Part shown: positions 4,087 through 62,164 of the stretch, one piece after another
Position numbering within the stretch: position 1 is the first letter of the stretch
Layout: each line of letters starts with the position of its first letter
Origin: Bacteroidaceae bacterium
GTDB taxonomy: Bacteria; Bacteroidota; Bacteroidia; Bacteroidales; Bacteroidaceae
DNA: 64,000 bases
Reading direction: 5' to 3'
Assembly: GCA_016280445.1 (NCBI GenBank)
Contig: JAEEGS010000033.1
Span: forward strand, 1 to 64,000
Translations under genes and position numbers: made by a program
Notes under the pieces: generated by a model
The model's input: the letters and a program-made list of their open reading frames with translations, nothing else
Databases searched by the model: none
Told to the model about the DNA's origin: nothing

Positions 4087-6957
4087 ATGAAACGTTTGAC
4101 CATCTTGTTGCTCTTCTTGCTGAGCGTCAGCGGAATGATGAAGGCCCAGCACTTGAATCTGTCTGATTCCATCGTGACAGGGACGGAAGAGTATGTGAAC
4201 CTTGTGCGCCTGATGCAGAAGGTGTGGACTTTCAACCATGAGATTCCACAAGAGAAAGTGTATCTGCACTTTGACAACACGGGTTACTTCAAGGGGGAAA
4301 AGATGTGGTTCAAGGGGTATGTCATCCGAACGGATACGGGTAAACCCACGGATATGAGTTCTGTTTTGTATGTGGAGTTGGTCAATCCAAGTGGAGAGGT
4401 GGTTCAGAGCAGGAAGGTATTTATTGAGAAAGGTGAGGCGGTAGGTGACTTCTCACTCGACACACTCTACACGACGGGATTCTACGAAGTACGTGCCTAT
4501 ACGCGCTACATGCTGAACTGGGGCGGAACAGGCATTTACTCCCGTGTGTTCCCCATCTTCAAGCAACCTAAGCATGAGGGTGACTATTCTCGGATGGAGA
4601 TAGATAAGTTCTCTTATCGTAAGCGGCAGCCAAACTATCGCGAGGTCCCCTACGAGGTGTTAACAGAGGATAATCAGAAGAAGAATAAGAACCAGCTGAC
4701 AATGAAGAGATTGCCGCATGGAAAGGTGCATGTAAACTTCTATCCAGAGGGCGGTAATTTGGTGGAGGATTTGACATCGCGTGTTGCTTTTGCGGTGAAT
4801 GATGACGAGGGACGTATGTTCGATGTGCAGGGTGTGATTTTGGACGAGAACAAGGAATTGGTGCAGGGAACAGTGACCTACAAGGATGGACGTGGCTATT
4901 TCAGCCTTACGCCTGATGATGAACCGAAGTATCTGCAACTGACCACGGCTGACGGGAAGAAGCAAGAGTTTGAGTTGCCGGAGGCTCTGACGGAAGGGGT
5001 GGTGATGACTGTGAACGCGCTGAATGACCCTGATGTGACGGCAACGCTTTCGGCTTCGATGGCAATGCAAGACAGGCTGTTGGGTTATACGCTGATGCAC
5101 GATGGTCGCATTGTGGATTGTGACACGTTGACATGCCGTCCCGTGACGGTGCTGAAATGGGCACGAGAGGTGCTGCCTGCCGGGGTGAACCAACTGACAC
5201 TGTTTGATGCGGAGGGGCATGTGCTGGCTGAACGTTTGTTCTTCATCTGTCCGAAAGTGAATGTCGCGAATAGGGTGGAAGTGACGACACTTACGGATCA
5301 CATGGTGCCATGTGGAAAGGTGCAGCTGGATTTGCAGGCAGAGCCGAATGCCAGTTTGTCGCTGTCTGCTATGGACATGGCCACCATGACGAATGGCAAG
5401 GAGGGAAATATGCTGACATGGATGTTGCTGTCGAGCGAGGTGAAGGGCTACATTGCTCATCCTGACTATTACTTTGAGAGCGATGATAGGGAACACCGTG
5501 TTGCGGCAGATGTGCTGATGATGGTGCAGGGGTGGCGACGCTATAGGTGGCAGTTGATGGCTGGAAATGAGCGATTTAAGCGCATTCATCGTATAGAGGA
5601 TAAACTCTACATTCACGGTAAATTGATGCAGGCTAAAAGAGATGTGCCCGTGACGAATGAGAAGTTGCGTGCCTATCTGATTTGGATGAACAGAGAGGAC
5701 AAAACAGCCTCGTGGGTGTATGGCGACTGCGTGACGGACAGTGTGGGCGGTTTTGCCTTTGCCATGCCCAATGCGTGGTTTGAGTGGAACCTTCAAATTG
5801 TCGTGAGAGATGCGTATGATTTTGGTATGGACAACTCAGGCAAATATAAGGGAGCGAAGCTGGGAGTGAACGACCGCCGTCTGGAATACAGGGTGATGCT
5901 GGACAGGAATTTCTCGCCTCAGCCTCGATGGTTGTCGCCTGAAGAGACGGACACGTTAACTGGTGTCAGCCCGAATCTCTATGCCGATGTGCCAGACTCA
6001 GTGTTTGAGGCTTTGCAGGATATACAGATACGGAAACGTGCACATGTGTTGCCAGAGGTGAAAGTGAAGGCTTATCGTCGCATCTTCGAGGATGCCCGTG
6101 CGGCATGGGAGAGTGAGAGCGAGGGACAACATTGGGCAAGTATCTATTATGATGTGGACAAGGAAGTTGACCGCATCTACGACAATGGTGGTGCCATTCC
6201 TGGTTTGTATGAATGGCTGTATGAGCGCAATCCGCTTTTCCGAGCAGCGGGCAGCGACAGATTCCTGCCTACGCAGCTGAACAGCAATATCGAATCGGTA
6301 AAGATGGAAGGTGAGCAGACGTTGACGGTGAATGAGTTTGGCAATCCCTTCGAGAATCTGAATGCATATAAGGATGGCACCATCTATCAGGTGCATGCAG
6401 AGGGAACGAAGGTGAAACGCTCGAAACAAGGGGCACAAATCTATGATGATGGACTGAGTTATAAGGGAAGACCCATTATCTGGATATTGAACAATGGTTT
6501 TGCAGGCATCACCAGCACAACGAATCTGAGGATACGGGATTTGATAGTGCATCAGGCCACAATGGAAGACTTCCCTTATTTCCTGGATGAGGTGAAGTCC
6601 ATCTATCTGACGGAGAATGTCAATGCCGCTGACCGCTATATCTATAGTTCTGATTTGAAAGGAAGAAGTCCGGTGACTCTCTTTGTCTATACGCATCATC
6701 AATTCAATTGGAAGAAGAATGGATCGCGTCGAACCCATTTTCAGGCATTTGACAAGCCTGACACCTTCGAGATGGACGACTACAGCAAGTTGCCACCCAT
6801 GGAGGATTTCCGTCGTACAATATTCTGGTCACCAAACATCAAGACGGATGCCACAGGACATGCTACGGTGGAGTTTTGGAACAATTCGTCAGCCCGTCGG
6901 CTCTATATATCGGCAGAAGGGATGACGACAGAAGGAACATTTTTGACGAATGAATAG
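4087..6957 (+). CDS. Large secreted macroglobulin-like (MG2-type) protein
   Basis: I prefer the ATG at 4087, giving 956 residues with a standard signal peptide (MKRLTILLLFLLSVSG...KAQ); an in-frame ATG at 4081 adds two residues. Residues about 45-160 look like an alpha-2-macroglobulin MG2 domain: EKVYLHFDNTGYFKGEKMWF, then YVELVNPSGEVV and TTGFYEVRAYTRYM. A second Ig-like stretch starts near KVHVNFYPEGGNLVEDL. The C-terminal third has a TonB-plug-like segment (GRPIIWILNNG) and ends with TDATGHATVEFWNNSSARRL, common in secreted Bacteroidota proteins of this type. No thioester CxEQ motif was noticed. It overlaps the next gene by 8 bp and that gene is a shorter paralogue. It probably acts in the periplasm or at the outer membrane; exact role unknown. 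Confidence 0.7.
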   Translation: MKRLTILLLFLLSVSGMMKAQHLNLSDSIVTGTEEYVNLVRLMQKVWTFNHEIPQEKVYLHFDNTGYFKGEKMWFKGYVIRTDTGKPTDMSSVLYVELVNPSGEVVQSRKVFIEKGEAVGDFSLDTLYTTGFYEVRAYTRYMLNWGGTGIYSRVFPIFKQPKHEGDYSRMEIDKFSYRKRQPNYREVPYEVLTEDNQKKNKNQLTMKRLPHGKVHVNFYPEGGNLVEDLTSRVAFAVNDDEGRMFDVQGVILDENKELVQGTVTYKDGRGYFSLTPDDEPKYLQLTTADGKKQEFELPEALTEGVVMTVNALNDPDVTATLSASMAMQDRLLGYTLMHDGRIVDCDTLTCRPVTVLKWAREVLPAGVNQLTLFDAEGHVLAERLFFICPKVNVANRVEVTTLTDHMVPCGKVQLDLQAEPNASLSLSAMDMATMTNGKEGNMLTWMLLSSEVKGYIAHPDYYFESDDREHRVAADVLMMVQGWRRYRWQLMAGNERFKRIHRIEDKLYIHGKLMQAKRDVPVTNEKLRAYLIWMNREDKTASWVYGDCVTDSVGGFAFAMPNAWFEWNLQIVVRDAYDFGMDNSGKYKGAKLGVNDRRLEYRVMLDRNFSPQPRWLSPEETDTLTGVSPNLYADVPDSVFEALQDIQIRKRAHVLPEVKVKAYRRIFEDARAAWESESEGQHWASIYYDVDKEVDRIYDNGGAIPGLYEWLYERNPLFRAAGSDRFLPTQLNSNIESVKMEGEQTLTVNEFGNPFENLNAYKDGTIYQVHAEGTKVKRSKQGAQIYDDGLSYKGRPIIWILNNGFAGITSTTNLRIRDLIVHQATMEDFPYFLDEVKSIYLTENVNAADRYIYSSDLKGRSPVTLFVYTHHQFNWKKNGSRRTHFQAFDKPDTFEMDDYSKLPPMEDFRRTIFWSPNIKTDATGHATVEFWNNSSARRLYISAEGMTTEGTFLTNE

Positions 6958-8404
6958 GCGTATGCGACAAGTGTTTCTCCTCTTGATGATGTGTGTGGGT
7001 GGTTTCCTGAATATGGAAGCACAGGACTCGCTCGAACTGCAGCCATTGCTAAGGGAAATGGTAACGTTGAAATATGACAAGCCTCAAGGGTATGATTTGG
7101 GCGACACTATTCACTTTGAGGCTCTGGTGATGCGGGAAGGCAAGGAAGGAGGAACGGATTACAGCCGTGTGTTGTATGTGGAGTTGCTGAATCCACGGGC
7201 CAGTGTGACGGCAAGGAAAATACTTCGATTGGAGGATGGACGTGCCAAGGGTGCAATATGGGTGGATTCGTTGTATGGCTCAGGTTTCTATGAACTGAGG
7301 GCATACACCCGTTACATGACGAATTGGAAGGATGTGAAGTATTTCACTCGGGTGATTCCTGTCTTTGCGGTGGAAAAGACGGAACGAAAAGGGGAGGTGA
7401 AGGAGGAGAGAATCATCTGGACGCAGACAACAAGGACTGTGGATGATCGTAGTCCTGCCGCACAGAGGTTGTTGACATACTCTGATACGGTGTATTCGCT
7501 CGTTCAGCCTGTAGAGAAGAACCTGATGGTCTTCGGACACATAGAACCGAAGTGGAAACAACAAACGGAAGATGACAAACGTTTGGAAGGACGTGGGATG
7601 AAAGTGTCCATCCAACAGGGAAAGACGGTTTATGTGGGTGATGCTGAGACTGATTCGTTGGGTCGATATGCTTTGCTCTTTCCTGATGTGCAGGGGGATT
7701 GGACGTTGAGAATCCGTGAACAGAAAGGACAGCGGGTTCTGAATCGTCATTATGTAATGGTGGATTGTATATTTGCTCCAGCACCTCGGCCTTTGAGGGC
7801 GTCGGAGTTGGCTCCTGTCCTGTATGGCGTGAAGAAGTGGAAGAATGACTCGTCAAGAGAAAAGTGGATGTCACGCTTCTTGAATAGTGATGAGGCCAGC
7901 ACGAGGATGAAGAATTGGGGAGCTGTTTCTTTAGGGTTTTATGCTTATCTGGGAAAGGTGGATCGCCGCTTTGAACGTACAGTAGGTGTGGCTTCGCCCA
8001 CAATCTTGAATGTGGCGCGTGATAGTGCGTATAATAAGTATATGGATATCAACTTGATGGGATATGATTCGAACGATCCGAGAACGGTGTGTGTGGATGG
8101 TCCGAGTTTTCAAGGACGTCCTATCGTGTGGATTGTCAATGGGGCATATCGTCTGGTGACAGGACTGAAGAAGGGAATCACAGACTTTCAGGTCTTGCGT
8201 CCTACGCGACGTTCGATGCCTATCTATGTGGATGAGGTAAAAAGTGTATATATCACAGATTGCCCAGATGCATTTCATCCTTATGTGCGCTGTTCGGTGT
8301 TGGAAAAGAAGCGTCCAGTGACTGTGTTTGTGACGTTGCACGAGAACTATGTGTGGGATGATTCGGGGCTGTTCAGTCAGAGTTTTGTAGGTTTTTCAGA
8401 GTGA
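6950..8404 (+). CDS. Shorter paralogue of the macroglobulin-like protein
   Basis: This 484-residue protein has a signal peptide (RQVFLLLMMCVGGF...EAQ) and shares with its upstream neighbour both the MG2-like start (YVELLNPRASVTARKI, GSGFYELRAYTRYMTNW) and the plug-like block near the C-terminus (GRPIVWIVNGAY, YVDEVKSVYITD, RPVTVFVTLHENYVWDD). The middle of the larger protein, about 400 residues, is absent. The start overlaps the preceding stop by 8 bp, so the two are probably translated together and may form one assembly. An ATG four codons downstream (6962) is an equally good start. Function unknown. Confidence 0.65.
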   Translation: MNRRMRQVFLLLMMCVGGFLNMEAQDSLELQPLLREMVTLKYDKPQGYDLGDTIHFEALVMREGKEGGTDYSRVLYVELLNPRASVTARKILRLEDGRAKGAIWVDSLYGSGFYELRAYTRYMTNWKDVKYFTRVIPVFAVEKTERKGEVKEERIIWTQTTRTVDDRSPAAQRLLTYSDTVYSLVQPVEKNLMVFGHIEPKWKQQTEDDKRLEGRGMKVSIQQGKTVYVGDAETDSLGRYALLFPDVQGDWTLRIREQKGQRVLNRHYVMVDCIFAPAPRPLRASELAPVLYGVKKWKNDSSREKWMSRFLNSDEASTRMKNWGAVSLGFYAYLGKVDRRFERTVGVASPTILNVARDSAYNKYMDINLMGYDSNDPRTVCVDGPSFQGRPIVWIVNGAYRLVTGLKKGITDFQVLRPTRRSMPIYVDEVKSVYITDCPDAFHPYVRCSVLEKKRPVTVFVTLHENYVWDDSGLFSQSFVGFSE

Positions 8405-56280: not shown

Positions 56281-57051
56281 TTAAGAATCCAACCACCTCT
56301 TGACAGCCGACACCTTGTCGCGGCTGACGATGATGTCGGTGTTCGGATAGCCATAGAGATGGATACGTATTTTGCCGAGAAAGAATGTGGAAAGTTTCTC
56401 AACAGCTGAGGCACTAACAATAAACTGGCGGTTGACGCGCATGAACCGGAGAGGATCGAGTTGGCTTTCCAGTTCGTCGAGGGTCAGGTTCAGTGCGTGG
56501 TTCTTTTCGTTTATGGTGTATAGATGCACCATGCCATTCTTGATGCCGATATGGCTTACCTCCCTGACGGGTATGATGGTGTAGGTGTCGCGGTAACTGA
56601 TGAGGAAACGTTCACGATAGCGGATGGTCTGGCTTTTTACTGACTTCAGCAGTTGGGTGATAGCATCAGTTGTGGACATGGAGAGTTGAGCATTAACCGA
56701 TGAAAGTTCCTGTACCTTCGTTAAAGCGGCTTGTAACTCCGTGCTTTCGATGGGTTTTAGCAGATAATCTATACTATTGAATTTAAAAGCCCTTATAGCA
56801 TATTGATCGTAAGCGGTTGTGAAGATGACAGGAATTGATTGTGGAACAGCTAAAAGTCCCTCGAAACTTAGTCCATCGCCCAACTGGATGTCCGATAGAA
56901 TCAAGTCCACATCGGTATGTGCACTATCGGAAAAGAATTTCCTTATTTCAGCATTGCTGGCCGCCACACCTGCTATCTCGTGCTCCTTTTCAAGCATTCT
57001 GCAGAGACGGTCGGCATTGCTTTGTTCGTCTTCAATAATCAGTATCTTCAT
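56281..57051 (-). CDS. LytTR-type response regulator
   Basis: The 256-residue protein has an N-terminal receiver (ILIIEDEQSNADRLCRMLEK; phospho-Asp in LILSDIQLGDGLS; FTTAYDQYAIRAFKFNSIDY then LLKPIE) and a C-terminal LytTR DNA-binding domain (RERFLISYRDTYTIIPVREV ... MRVNRQFIVSASAVEKL). It overlaps the histidine kinase gene by 4 bp. Targets may include the downstream acetyltransferase and AEC transporter. Confidence 0.9.
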   Translation of the reverse strand: MKILIIEDEQSNADRLCRMLEKEHEIAGVAASNAEIRKFFSDSAHTDVDLILSDIQLGDGLSFEGLLAVPQSIPVIFTTAYDQYAIRAFKFNSIDYLLKPIESTELQAALTKVQELSSVNAQLSMSTTDAITQLLKSVKSQTIRYRERFLISYRDTYTIIPVREVSHIGIKNGMVHLYTINEKNHALNLTLDELESQLDPLRFMRVNRQFIVSASAVEKLSTFFLGKIRIHLYGYPNTDIIVSRDKVSAVKRWLDS

Positions 57052-57845
57052 CTTTCTATTGGAATTAGCGGGATGGTGACACAGTATTTCTCTTGGGTGT
57101 TATTGATAACAACCTTCTGCGAGGTCAATAACTGGTATCGTTCCACAATGTTATGCTGACCTATGTTAGCGGAGTCTTCATTCGTGATAGGTTGCTTGCG
57201 GTTGCTCACGCTGATTCGATATCCGTCGGTGGTCACATCAATGATGAGCGGACGAGCCTGCGTATGCTCGTTATGTTTGACAGCATTCTCTATCAGCATC
57301 TGCAGGGCGGCAGGTGGCAGCTTCCCATTTTTCTTGGTTACTTCGGGTGCTATCCGTACTTGTATTCCCTCGCCGAACCGCTGTTGTAGCAAAGCCAGAT
57401 AGCGGTCGAGAAATGCCAGTTCCTCCTGTAGAGTCACCACCGTGTGATCGAGGTGAGAGAGCGTGTAGCGGTACACTTTAGAGAGATTCATCAGATACTC
57501 CGATGCCTGTTTGGGGTTAACCTCTATCAGGTCAGCCAGAATGCTAAAGTTGTTGAACACAAAGTGGGGACTCAACTGATTCTCCAGTGCTTGTAGACGG
57601 AACTTGTCGCGCTCCTTCTCGGCTTTCTCACGCGACCGCCAATAGTAGAGTGTCACCACCGTCGTAAACAGACAGCAGGCGGCATAGTCCACCAACATTC
57701 CCCACGAGTCCCAAGGCCAACCGTTTTTTAGTGCCTGTTTCATTTCCTCGTCAGTCAGTAGCCACAGCGCGTAGTAGAACAGCAGTCCCACTACCGACAG
57801 CCCCATCACAAGAAGTGCCCCGTGTATGATCCGTCTTGTCTTCAT
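57048..57845 (-). CDS. LytS/YehU-type sensor histidine kinase
   Basis: ATG 57845 gives 265 residues; the frame is open back to 57896, but the promoter lies in that extension. Two N-terminal membrane helices (GALLVMGLSVVGLLFYYALW; a second near WGMLVDYAACCLFTTVVTLY) precede the His_kinase domain with LENQLSPHFVFNNFSILADL (phospho-accepting His) and the ATP-binding LIENAVKHNE. There is no sensor domain beyond the helices, so it may sense the membrane. It pairs with the LytTR regulator. Confidence 0.87.
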   Translation of the reverse strand: MKTRRIIHGALLVMGLSVVGLLFYYALWLLTDEEMKQALKNGWPWDSWGMLVDYAACCLFTTVVTLYYWRSREKAEKERDKFRLQALENQLSPHFVFNNFSILADLIEVNPKQASEYLMNLSKVYRYTLSHLDHTVVTLQEELAFLDRYLALLQQRFGEGIQVRIAPEVTKKNGKLPPAALQMLIENAVKHNEHTQARPLIIDVTTDGYRISVSNRKQPITNEDSANIGQHNIVERYQLLTSQKVVINNTQEKYCVTIPLIPIER

Positions 57846-57853
57846 TTCGATTG

Positions 57854-57861
57854 CAAAGTTA
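57854..57861 (-). promoter_or_regulatory. -7 box immediately before the histidine kinase start
   Basis: Reads TAACTTTG on the minus strand, only 8 nt from the predicted ATG, implying a leaderless or nearly leaderless mRNA. Confidence 0.5.
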
Positions 57862-57930
57862 CGATTTTGTTCTGATATGAGAACGGAAGTGGCCAATTTT
57901 TAATTTCGAAGACGTTCCACTCTTCACTTT

Positions 57931-59408: not shown

Positions 59409-59738
59409 AGGGCTCTATGAGTTCACTGGAAACCGAAAGTGAGTGAAACGGGAAAAATGTGGGGTGAACTGTCCGCATGGTCGGAACCGGCCCTCCACAA
59501 ACGGCTTGGGGGCTGCTCCGCAAGTGTTTTGTCCTCTACGCTTATGAACTATTTCGGGCTTTTCTTGCAGGGGATGGCAAAAAGACGTAAATTTGTGGCG
59601 AACAAAACAGGATTTGTATGGAGTATTCATTTAGAGAAATGGCCGTCCCTCAGCGACGCCCCCGATTTCGTGCTCCAGCGGATTCTTTGGTCGTGAGGTC
59701 TTTTTGTCCAAACTGTACTTTTTTTTATCATAAATGGA

Positions 59739-59776
59739 ACACCATTTTGGTGTGTGGTTTATTTTGTCTTCCTTTG
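59739..59776 (+). promoter_or_regulatory. Promoter and candidate operator before the ThiD-AraC gene
   Basis: TTTG (59746-59749), 19-nt spacer and TTCCTTTG (59769-59776, one base off consensus) look like a promoter. A perfect inverted repeat ACACCA-TTT-TGGTGT (59739-59753) lies across the -33 box and is a natural operator candidate for the AraC-domain protein or another repressor. Confidence 0.45.
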
Positions 59777-59805: not shown

Positions 59806-60708
59806 ATGAATCCAACGAGAGCGATATTGACCATCACGGGTAGCGACGGCACAGGCGGTTCGGGCGTGCAGGCGGACATCCGCTTCATTCGCGAACTGGG
59901 TGGGGTAGCGGCATCCGCCATCACGTCCATCACGGTGCAGAACACGTTGGGCATTCAGGAGTTCTACGACCTGCCCGCATCGACCGTGAGGATGCAGGTG
60001 GAGGCCATCATCAACGACTTGCAGCCACAGGTGGTGAAGGTGGGATTGTTGCGACGCATCGATGTGGTGGAAGCGGTGGCAGACGTGTTGCGTCGATACC
60101 GTCCCCGACACATCATCTATGCACCCGTGCTGGAATCGACGCGTGGCGAACGGCTGCTGTCGCCCGAGGTTTATGAGGCCATCGAACGCTTGCTCTTGCC
60201 CTTGTGCACGGTCGTTCTGGAGGCGCGTCATGAGGGTCAGCACGGTAAGGCTAACCAACTATCTTCGGCAGTGGCGGTGTTGCTCAACCGCGGAGAACAG
60301 CCCGATGAGGCGATGCGCCATGCTCGTGAGTTGTTGGATGAGTTGCCAGCAGGCTATGTGGAGCCGACGGGTCGCAGCGGAGAACTCTACAATCAGTTTC
60401 TCGACACCGTGGAGCGATTCTACCATCGCTATGCCGATGTGGCCTTCTATGCCGAGCAACTGAATGTCAGCCCTCGTTATCTGGGGCAGGTGACCCGTCG
60501 TATCGCAGGGCGTTCGCCTAAAACTATCATCGACGAGCGCATCACGGCCGAGATGGTCACGTTGCTCACTACAACCACGCGTTCGCTCAAGGAAATTGCC
60601 CATCAGTTGGGCTTCTCCTCACAAGCGCACCTGTCCCGTTTTTTCAAGAAACAGAAGGGTGTTTCGCCCATACAATATAGATATAAGGAATTAGAAGTTA
60701 AAGGATAA
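59806..60708 (+). CDS. ThiD-like domain fused to AraC DNA-binding domain
   Basis: ATG 59806 gives 300 residues; the frame extends upstream to 59734, across the promoter. Residues 5-175 follow ThiD (hydroxymethylpyrimidine or pyridoxine kinase): AILTITGSDGTGGSGVQADI, ITVQNTLGIQEFYDLP, VVKVGLL, YAPVLESTRGERLL. In normal ThiD about 70 residues follow, with VTPN and the catalytic GTGCTLSSA. Here those are gone: TVVLEARHEGQHGKANQLSSA joins the two flanks, with HGKANQLSSA where GTGCTLSSA should be, so the anion hole is lost. Residues about 200-297 are an AraC double helix-turn-helix (LNVSPRYLGQVTRRIAGRSP; LKEIAHQLGFSSQAHLSRFF). It directly precedes pdxS. A ligand-sensing pseudokinase regulator is likely. 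Confidence 0.85.
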   Translation: MNPTRAILTITGSDGTGGSGVQADIRFIRELGGVAASAITSITVQNTLGIQEFYDLPASTVRMQVEAIINDLQPQVVKVGLLRRIDVVEAVADVLRRYRPRHIIYAPVLESTRGERLLSPEVYEAIERLLLPLCTVVLEARHEGQHGKANQLSSAVAVLLNRGEQPDEAMRHARELLDELPAGYVEPTGRSGELYNQFLDTVERFYHRYADVAFYAEQLNVSPRYLGQVTRRIAGRSPKTIIDERITAEMVTLLTTTTRSLKEIAHQLGFSSQAHLSRFFKKQKGVSPIQYRYKELEVKG

Positions 60709-60722
60709 AATAAAACACGACA

Positions 60723-61598
60723 ATGGTAAACGAAAGACAAGACTTGAACCGTCAGTTGGCTCAGATGCTGAAAGGCGGTGTGATTATGGATGTGACTACT
60801 CCCGAACAGGCACGCATCGCCGAAGAGGCTGGTGCATGTGCAGTGATGGCACTCGAACGTATTCCTGCCGACATCCGCGCGGCTGGTGGCGTGAGCCGCA
60901 TGAGTGACCCGAAGATGATTCGCGGCATTCAAGAGGCGGTTAGCATCCCCGTGATGGCCAAATGCCGCATCGGACACATAGCCGAGGCACAGATTCTGCA
61001 AGCCATCGAGATTGACTACATCGACGAGAGTGAGGTGCTTAGCCCAGCCGACAACATCTACCACATTGACAAGACGAAGTTCGACGTACCCTTTGTGTGC
61101 GGTGCGAAGAACTTGGGCGAGGCGTTGCGACGCATAGCCGAGGGTGCCACGATGATTCGTACGAAAGGTGAGCCAGGCACAGGCGATGTTGTGCAGGCTG
61201 TTAGTCACATGCGACTGATGCAGAGTGAGATACGCCGTCTTGTCTCGATGAGCGATGATGAACTCTTCGAGGCCGCCAAACAGTTGCAAGCCCCCTACGA
61301 ACTGGTGCGTTTCGTGCATGAGAACGGCAAACTGCCCGTTGTGAACTTCGCTGCAGGAGGTGTTGCCACACCAGCCGATGCTGCGCTGATGATGCAGTTG
61401 GGTGCCGAGGGTGTCTTCGTGGGCAGCGGCATCTTCAAGAGTGGCAATCCCCGGAAACGTGCTGCCGCTATCGTGCAGGCGGTTACCAACTATCAGGATG
61501 CCAAACTGTTGGCAGAACTCTCTGAGGATCTCGGCGAGGCAATGGTCGGCATCAACGAACAGGAAATAGAGTTGTTAATGGCTGAAAGAGGAAAATGA
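60723..61598 (+). CDS. pdxS: Pyridoxal 5'-phosphate synthase subunit PdxS
   Basis: The 291-residue protein is a typical Pdx[55 protein letters not shown] (catalytic Lys about 80), [22 protein letters not shown] (second Lys about 148) and [20 protein letters not shown]. It makes PLP from ribose 5-phosphate, glyceraldehyde 3-phosphate and ammonia supplied by PdxT. The gene begins 14 nt after the ThiD-AraC gene and overlaps pdxT by 4 bp. Confidence 0.97.
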
Positions 61599-62164
61599 GA
61601 ATAGCAGTTCTTGCCCTGCAAGGGGCGTTTAATGAGCACGAGCAGGTGTTGCAGCGACTGGGTGTGGAGACCTTTGAGGTGCGCCAGTTGTCTGATTGGC
61701 AACAACCTAAGGATGGTTTGATACTGCCGGGTGGCGAAAGTACGGTGCAGATGCGTCTGCTCTCCCAACTCGGTCTTCTCGAACCCGTGCGTGAGGCGAT
61801 TCTGGGTGGTCTTCCTGTCTTTGGCACTTGTGCTGGCATGATTCTCCTCTCCGAAGGGCGTCTGGGCACGATGGACATCCGTGTGCGTCGCAATGCATAC
61901 GGTCGGCAACTTGGCAGTTTCCACACCGAAGGACAAGTGGAAGGGACGGGGAACCATGTACCCATGACCTTCATCCGTGCGCCTTACATCGAGGAAATCC
62001 TTTCTCCCCGCTGTCAGGTGCTGGCCGAGGTGGACGGGCACATCGTTGCTGCCCAGCAAGGCAACCAGCTTGCCACATCGTTCCATCCCGAACTGGACCA
62101 AGACCTGCGCATCCACCAGCACTTCATGCAGATGGTTTCTGCAGTTTCAAGGCTCGTTGCGTAA
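61595..62164 (+). CDS. pdxT: Pyridoxal 5'-phosphate synthase glutaminase PdxT
   Basis: The 189-residue class I glutaminase has [44 protein letters not shown] (nucleophile Cys79) and [17 protein letters not shown] (His164, Glu166). It hydrolyses glutamine and channels ammonia to PdxS. ATGA overlap with pdxS indicates translational coupling. Confidence 0.97.

Follow-up and report, generated by a model that had tools for sequence, protein, structure and literature searches.

Genes and domains at the locus

The window, by which is meant the whole 64,000-nucleotide stretch of DNA analysed, carries on its forward strand at positions 59806..60708 an open reading frame of 300 amino acids with Pfam profile matches to a ThiD-type kinase and to an AraC-type DNA-binding domain. 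It is followed on the same strand by pdxS (60723..61598), encoding the lyase subunit of PLP synthase (TIGR00343, 495.1 bits against a cut-off of 438.45), and pdxT (61595..62164), encoding the glutaminase subunit (TIGR03800, 202.4 bits against 105.55). The fusion gene stops at 60708 and pdxS starts at 60723, leaving a gap of 14 nt, and pdxS and pdxT overlap by 4 nt. These coordinates and NCBIfam cut-offs agree with the initial annotation, which was made from the sequence alone and had placed pdxS-pdxT 14 nt downstream of the fusion. A longer 324-amino-acid frame with an in-frame start at 59734 was rejected and 59806 is the likelier start, because 59734 precedes the predicted -7 box (59769-59776). 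On the opposite strand at 56281-57896, outside this unit, a LytTR-like response regulator and a histidine kinase-like gene form a pair, as judged by eye from the open reading frame list.

The N-terminal domain (residues 1-177; 59806..60336, forward strand) was delimited from Pfam, from the alignment with the solved structure 7r8y and from the family alignment. The best stretch of the Pfam profile Phos_pyr_kin covers residues 14-137, corresponding to profile positions 1-123 of 246, with a whole-protein E-value of 5.6e-39. The best solved match is 7r8y; residues 7-139 of the fusion align with its residues 26-158 and residues 143-177 with its residues 225-259, the second block being weak when scored alone (i-Evalue 73). 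Between the two blocks 66 residues of 7r8y have no counterpart, which places an internal deletion point at residues 139-143 (60220..60234, forward strand) and bears out the earlier observation of two ThiD-aligned blocks with about 70 residues missing between them. Downstream of it lies a remodelled anion hole, HGKAN, where ThiD has HGTGC (60241..60255, forward strand), with HGKANQLSSA standing opposite HGTGCTLSAA of 7r8y. The GTGCT anion hole had been described as lost, and this holds in part: the Thr-Gly-Cys-Thr is replaced, while the preceding His-Gly is kept. The whole fusion protein misses the cut-off of the ThiD family model TIGR00097 (126.4 against 204.95 bits). Because of the strong kinase match, such proteins are likely to be misnamed hydroxymethylpyrimidine kinase in databases.

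The C-terminal domain is a complete AraC double helix-turn-helix (PF12833) at residues 215-292 (60448..60681, forward strand), as first proposed; the HTH_18 profile is matched over positions 1-78 of 80 with an E-value of 2.3e-20 and 73.1 bits against a cut-off of 33.6, as expected of a member of the AraC/XylS group. No Pfam match to a GntR winged helix-turn-helix with an aminotransferase domain, the MocR/PdxR design, was found in the fusion protein.

Catalytic motifs are lost and ring-binding residues are kept

To compare the kinase part, 98 distinct fusion strings from many assemblies were aligned with 18 ThiD-family kinases. Some species are represented by two fusion strings, taken from different sources, and L137 and L150 denote a single gene; by form the 98 rows divide into 85 short, 4 middle and 9 full-length. 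The 18 comparator kinases were strong matches to the query or profile together with two from the same genome as the window, and are thus no random draw. The catalytic Cys of the GTG(C/D) motif is present in none of the 98 fusion rows, which have Asn (88) or Gly (10) at this position, compared with Cys in 17 and Asp in 1 of the 18 comparators. By form, Asn occurs in 84/85 short and 4/4 middle rows, and Gly in one short and in 9/9 full-length rows. The Asn of the TPN motif is likewise found in 0/98 fusion rows versus 18/18 comparator kinases, and the ATP-side KGG segment is a gap in 89/98 fusion rows, these being the short and middle forms. All 98 fusion rows retain the Gly of GSD, the Gln of VQN (the Gln44 equivalent) and both the Lys and the Gly of KxG. 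The equivalents of Gly11 and Gln44 in Salmonella numbering are thereby invariant across the fusions; in Salmonella ThiD these two residues contact the substrate ring.

In four comparisons with the window gene, dN of the kinase part was 0.07-0.15 and dS 0.87-1.6, and in the same comparisons the kinase and helix-turn-helix parts were about equally conserved; dS was saturated or infinite in some whole-gene or HTH-part comparisons. The kinase part is under purifying selection, and a pseudogene was rejected on the dN/dS of this part. A decaying kinase kept only by its proximity to pdxST, as the lost motifs and 66 residues might suggest, is hardly credible given a dN far below dS in all four comparisons, pocket residues invariant over 98 rows and fusions that split from ordinary kinases with full support in the tree described below.

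Judged by its motifs, the kinase is dead. The initial annotation had claimed that the catalytic motifs were gone and had named intact sites as the finding that would speak against it; such sites were not seen. It could still be argued that the protein is a working or bifunctional kinase-regulator in the manner of RbkR or BirA, phosphorylating HMP or pyridoxal, since the ring-binding residues of ThiD never vary among the fusions and sister proteins of full length occur. With the catalytic Cys and the TPN Asn absent from every row and the KGG segment missing from the 89 short and middle ones, a catalytic kinase was rejected, and this reading strikes us as far-fetched. The thi operon of the same genome encodes an intact ThiD, and another family member is also present, both of which argue further against it. 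The latter, a ThiD-family paralogue (L002; G000:C70:15234-15992, minus strand), has Glu at the Gln44 place and Asp for the catalytic Cys, falls just below the TIGR00097 cut-off (203.5 against 204.95 bits) and lies near leuB- and metA-like genes as judged by eye.

The fusion family is tied to pdxST

When the fusion protein was searched against 151 genomes belonging to the bacterial family of the window, 22 genomes carried the fusion and the other 125 that lack pdxS had none, both among the matches listed. A PdxS query found pdxS in 26 of the same 151 genomes. These 26 include every genome with a fusion, and the coordinates place each of the 22 fusions next to pdxS. A genome search for fusions neighbouring pdxST had been proposed as a check on the annotation, and with 22 of the 26 pdxS genomes of the family carrying the pair, random placement was not seen. 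In the four pdxS genomes of the family without a fusion (G013, G140, G025 and G051), no regulator-like open reading frame was found beside pdxST when the listing was inspected by eye. In an order-level sample of 295 genomes, 13 had pdxS, 6 of these with the fusion and 7 without among the matches listed, and no full-span fusion match was found among those listed for the other 282. Among 395 genomes of the phylum, the genome of the window was the sole match at E <= 1e-66, and no spread beyond Bacteroidales was seen at this threshold, in both cases among the matches listed, with at most five candidates scored per genome. The carriers are rumen and gut Prevotella-type bacteria; Prevotella ruminicola strain KHT3, for one, has the unit (L078).

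A contig search with the fusion alone as query yielded 80 loci, of which 71 have pdxS on the same strand at most 207 nt downstream, the two genes overlapping by up to 25 nt in some of them. In the other nine, two loci stop at the contig end (L065, L086), pdxS lies at 743 nt in one (L088) and at 3.3 kb in three (L082, L089, L101), pdxST is on the other strand within about 4 kb in two (L073, L099), and in Xylanibacter brevis (L064) pdxS is on a different contig from the fusion. At L073 and L099 (positions 5974-7724), a LysR-like regulator gene, identified by eye, and a short gene stand between the fusion and the flipped pdxST, with the probable operator described below kept. The fusion family is tied to pdxST. 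As fusion-less pdxST genomes exist, four in the family and seven in the order sample with one shared, pdxST does not need the fusion.

A probable operator follows pdxST

The promoters of operon-type loci share one long motif, a probable operator. It was described by a position weight matrix (PWM) of 44 columns built from 12 non-redundant operon-type promoters, and a site was called at 10 bits or more. The operon set comprises 62 promoters, with those shorter than 150 nt left out, and includes the 12 training promoters, so that operon-type scores are partly circular; the pdxS-only loci, L131 and L162 are outside the training set. Over 92 distinct loci, after loci sharing the same final 120 nt upstream of the fusion had been collapsed to one, the motif was found at the fusion promoter only in 59, at the pdxS promoter only in 23, at both in 2 and at neither in 8, while the maximum in 543 control upstream stretches of open reading frames was 2.2 bits. 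The eight without a match are L064 and L065 (pdxST elsewhere or cut off), L018 and L019 (3.7 bits) and L114-L117 (full-length fusions).

Where the gap between fusion and pdxS is about 100 nt or more, the operator is mostly found at pdxS and is missing at the fusion. The exceptions, with the operator before the fusion despite a gap of 73-207 nt, are seven loci (L015, L016, L034, L035, L066, L068 and L102) that resemble an operon with an extended spacer. At the two loci with flipped pdxST, the operator stands at pdxS (36.9 bits in L073 and 36.2 in L099), the fusion promoters scoring -13.6 and -11.8, and in X. brevis, with the two unlinked, pdxS scores 43.1 bits (L131) and the fusion promoter -19.4. 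A short-type fusion of another family (L162, G261) has a score of 43.8 bits at its own promoter. No operator was found at ten fusion-less pdxST loci, four from the family and an additional six from the order sample, which scored -8.1 to -19.3 bits. The operator thus follows pdxST, linked or not, and both linkage and a common upstream site, as expected of a pdxST regulator, were found.

At the genome level, a 38-nt pattern allowing up to 3 mismatches gave 14 matches in the 151 family genomes. Thirteen were in fusion genomes, once each and always at a fusion or pdxS promoter; the fourteenth, with 3 mismatches, was in one of the 129 genomes without a fusion, and the reversed control gave 0 matches. 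The strict pattern was absent from 9 of the 22 fusion genomes, including the four with full-length fusions. Where the pattern is found, the predicted regulon is one operon.

The position of the motif relative to the promoter is nearly constant. The distance from its GGAA to the -7 box is 33 nt in 63 and 34 nt in 5 of 68 sites, counted on 68 of 86 scoring sites after 18 without an exact GGAA in range were left out. A second count, taking the first box from 15 nt on, gave 33 nt in 39/49 fusion promoters and 11/15 pdxS promoters, the remainder being at 22-26 or 34 nt. The full motif was not found with the PWM at any of the eight full-length loci (L114-L117, L161 and L163-L165). GGAAC/T stands at the same distance from a -7 box in six of these, before the fusion in L114, L115, L161 and L163 and before pdxS in L116 and L117, and L164 and L165 have no match to this pattern. 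This is suggestive of a full-length clade that keeps at most half of the operator.

The predicted operator at the window promoter

In the window the top PWM match lies at 59703-59746 with 59.8 bits, a value that is partly circular as this promoter belongs to the operon-type set of the matrix; the next matches score 6.6 bits (other strand, 59712) and 3.5 bits. Two predicted half-sites on the forward strand lie within this match. The upstream half-site TTTGTCCAAACTGTAC (59703..59718) is part of the best PWM match and of a 21 bp direct repeat, and the downstream half-site TTTATCATAAATGGAAC (59724..59740) begins 21 bp after the start of the first and matches the core pattern. The Bacteroidetes promoter consensus is TTTG / TAnnTTTG. 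A probable -33 element, TTTG (59746..59749, forward strand), was assigned from the sequence and this consensus, and a probable -7 element, TTCCTTTG (59769..59776, forward strand), lies 33 nt after the GGAA of the site.

Across loci the half-sites read roughly TTTnnCnAAAnTG and TTTATCAnAAnnGGAAC. The repeat was analysed in a set defined by GGAAC/T and a -7 box at 32-34 nt, its spacing being given by construction, which contained 39 sites less than 80% alike; the self-match test was run on 36 sites, with L114-L117 also left out. The strongest self-similarity of the matrix was that of a direct repeat offset by 21 bp (r 0.66), a value reached in 0/1000 column permutations. An inverted repeat of the form CCAAA...TTTGG was considered and dropped, as the best self-match is the 21-bp direct repeat. 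AraC sites typically comprise a pair of direct half-sites, offset by about 21 bp, next to the promoter, and this architecture was seen here for the short type of fusion and not for the full-length clade.

Within the genome of the window, the 22-nt core pattern has one match without mismatch, at the downstream half-site, and the 38-nt pattern has one match, at the fusion operon. As to other targets in this genome, two further core matches with 2 mismatches are at the level of the reversed control (3 matches versus 5). For control at the RNA level, no Rfam family was found at gathering score in the window, L131 or L004.

These observations bear on whether the site belongs to another regulator, with the fusion a co-transcribed passenger or a modulator that does not itself bind DNA. 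The existence of pdxST without the fusion in some genomes, and of a full-length clade without the full site, would be compatible with this. Against it, the site occurs in 13 of 22 fusion genomes and as one stray with 3 mismatches in 129 others, is missing from the ten fusion-less pdxST promoters, and is kept at unlinked or flipped pdxST; it is moreover an AraC-like 21-bp direct repeat, and the AraC domain of the fusion is complete. We regard a passenger role as very unlikely.

Origin of the fusion

Kinase parts from 116 rows were placed in a maximum-likelihood tree, in which the fusions split from ordinary kinases with support of 100/100 and the 9 full-length rows (8 genes) form one side of a 100/99 branch beside all shorter fusions; the tree program cautions, however, that the branches between kinases and full-length forms are long enough for long-branch attraction. 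These two support values suggest a single fusion followed by deletion; the fusion event probably took place once, in a Bacteroidales ancestor. Most simply, the tree would mean that one fusion occurred, that the catalytic residues were lost in each of the two lines, and that the ATP side was removed in the line to which the window gene belongs. Among the eight full-length loci, four are divergent from pdxST (G060, G441, G169 and G301) and four lie upstream on the same strand (G106, G049, G023 and G206). One of these genomes, G169, which carries a full-length divergent fusion, has in addition a second, short and long-branched fusion copy away from pdxST (L160:3773-4687), between antiporter-like and ATPase-like genes as judged by eye. 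This copy has no operator at its own promoter (-0.9 bits) and possibly has a second target or ligand.

Proposed mechanism and ligand

Taken together, it is very likely that the fusion is a transcription factor dedicated to pdxST, in which the AraC domain would bind the tandem half-sites, probably as an activator, and a ligand in the ThiD pocket would act as the switch. In the proposed course of events, an AraC double helix-turn-helix was joined to a ThiD-type kinase in a Bacteroidales ancestor, probably in a single event; phosphotransfer would then have been lost, in most members together with the ATP-side part of the fold, and the ring-binding half retained. At the window promoter, two copies of the AraC domain would occupy the two half-sites (59703-59718 and 59724-59740), which adjoin the -33 box on its upstream side. 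From there they would bring RNA polymerase to the fusion-pdxS-pdxT operon, own gene included, and most likely activate it. A small ring compound in the ThiD pocket would switch this control on or off. We infer that the protein binds the site and activates, that pdxST is its sole target and that the pocket binds a ligand.

Repression, or dual regulation in which the ligand-bound protein shuts the operon, would fit the autogenous placement of the operon-type site, and is the less favoured direction of control, which we judge unlikely. A half-site directly upstream of the -33 is the usual place of AraC-type activation, and the one here borders the -33 box on that side, with 33 nt to the -7 box in most cases. 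In addition, TTTG at -33 is poorly kept in the pdxS-only promoters inspected, as would be expected if these promoters depended on an activator.

For the ligand, PLP or pyridoxal would be the first choice, because the target makes PLP and MocR-type PdxR uses PLP as an anti-activator; other B6 vitamers would come next, followed by HMP or HMP-P. No match to the PdxH C-terminal domain was found in the genome of the window, and pyridoxal may therefore be the easiest salvage form. HMP is still a candidate, as the retained residues are of the HMP-kinase type. Because the Gly11 and Gln44 equivalents are kept throughout, the pocket might even have been preserved for HMP or HMP-P, with the switch coupling B6 synthesis to thiamin-precursor status as a cross-vitamin sensor, a tentative reading that is possible but on the doubtful side. 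The thi operon in the genome of the window includes thiC and an intact thiD, and in the stretches scanned at this operon (L118 / L169, G000:C58:1-14000) no Rfam match, such as a TPP riboswitch, was found at gathering score.

Should the favoured reading of a dedicated pdxST regulator be true, it would fill a gap in the control of pdxST in Bacteroidales where no MocR-type PdxR is found; in the genome of the window there is no MocR-sized GntR protein, the sole GntR match above cut-off being in a 180-aa frame that is too short. It would also show clearly how an enzyme can become a sensor, with the steps visible: fusion, catalytic loss in both clades and, in one of them, removal of the ATP side. 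Rumen and gut commonly harbour Prevotella-type bacteria, and such sensing would bear on who makes and who takes B6 there. An exact predicted operator comes with the system and is open to testing.

Comparison with known systems

The nearest enzyme is the ThiD/HMP-P kinase (TIGR00097; PDB 7r8y, 1jxh, 1ub0), which the fusion resembles in the sequence of residues 1-177 and in the ring-side residues; unlike it, the fusion is without the catalytic Cys, TPN and the ATP-side segment and has a fused DNA-binding domain. With AraC/XylS regulators (AraC, 2k9s, is among the PDB matches) it shares the complete double helix-turn-helix and the direct half-sites, offset by 21 bp, beside the -33. The usual sensor of AraC is a small-ligand domain, whereas that of the fusion is a kinase-type domain.

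Enzyme-derived vitamin regulators also include BirA, and RbkR and BirA keep their catalysis. ThiR, RbkR and BirA are like the fusion in that a vitamin enzyme has been turned into the sensor of the pathway's transcription factor, but they are built from other enzymes and other DNA-binding domains. ThiR and RbkR of archaea appear by title in the reference list of PMC6593275.

For pdxST itself, the main text of PMC5320631 describes control by MocR-type PdxR, mostly in Proteobacteria, Firmicutes and Actinobacteria, with apo-PdxR activating pdxST and PLP acting as anti-activator. PdxR is similar to the fusion in being a regulator built on the fold of an enzyme from the chemistry of the same vitamin, and in adjoining pdxST, which it controls; it combines a GntR winged helix with an aminotransferase fold, in contrast to the N-terminal ThiD kinase fold and AraC double helix-turn-helix of the fusion. 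AraC is not mentioned in the main text of PMC5320631, nor the terms AraC or fusion in the main texts of PMC9997740 and PMC6593275, and no published description of a ThiD-AraC regulator was found in titles and the starts of abstracts in the open-licence literature. As regulators made from vitamin enzymes are already known, the system is a variant of a known principle; what is new here is the proposed pseudokinase-AraC regulator together with its probable pdxST operator.
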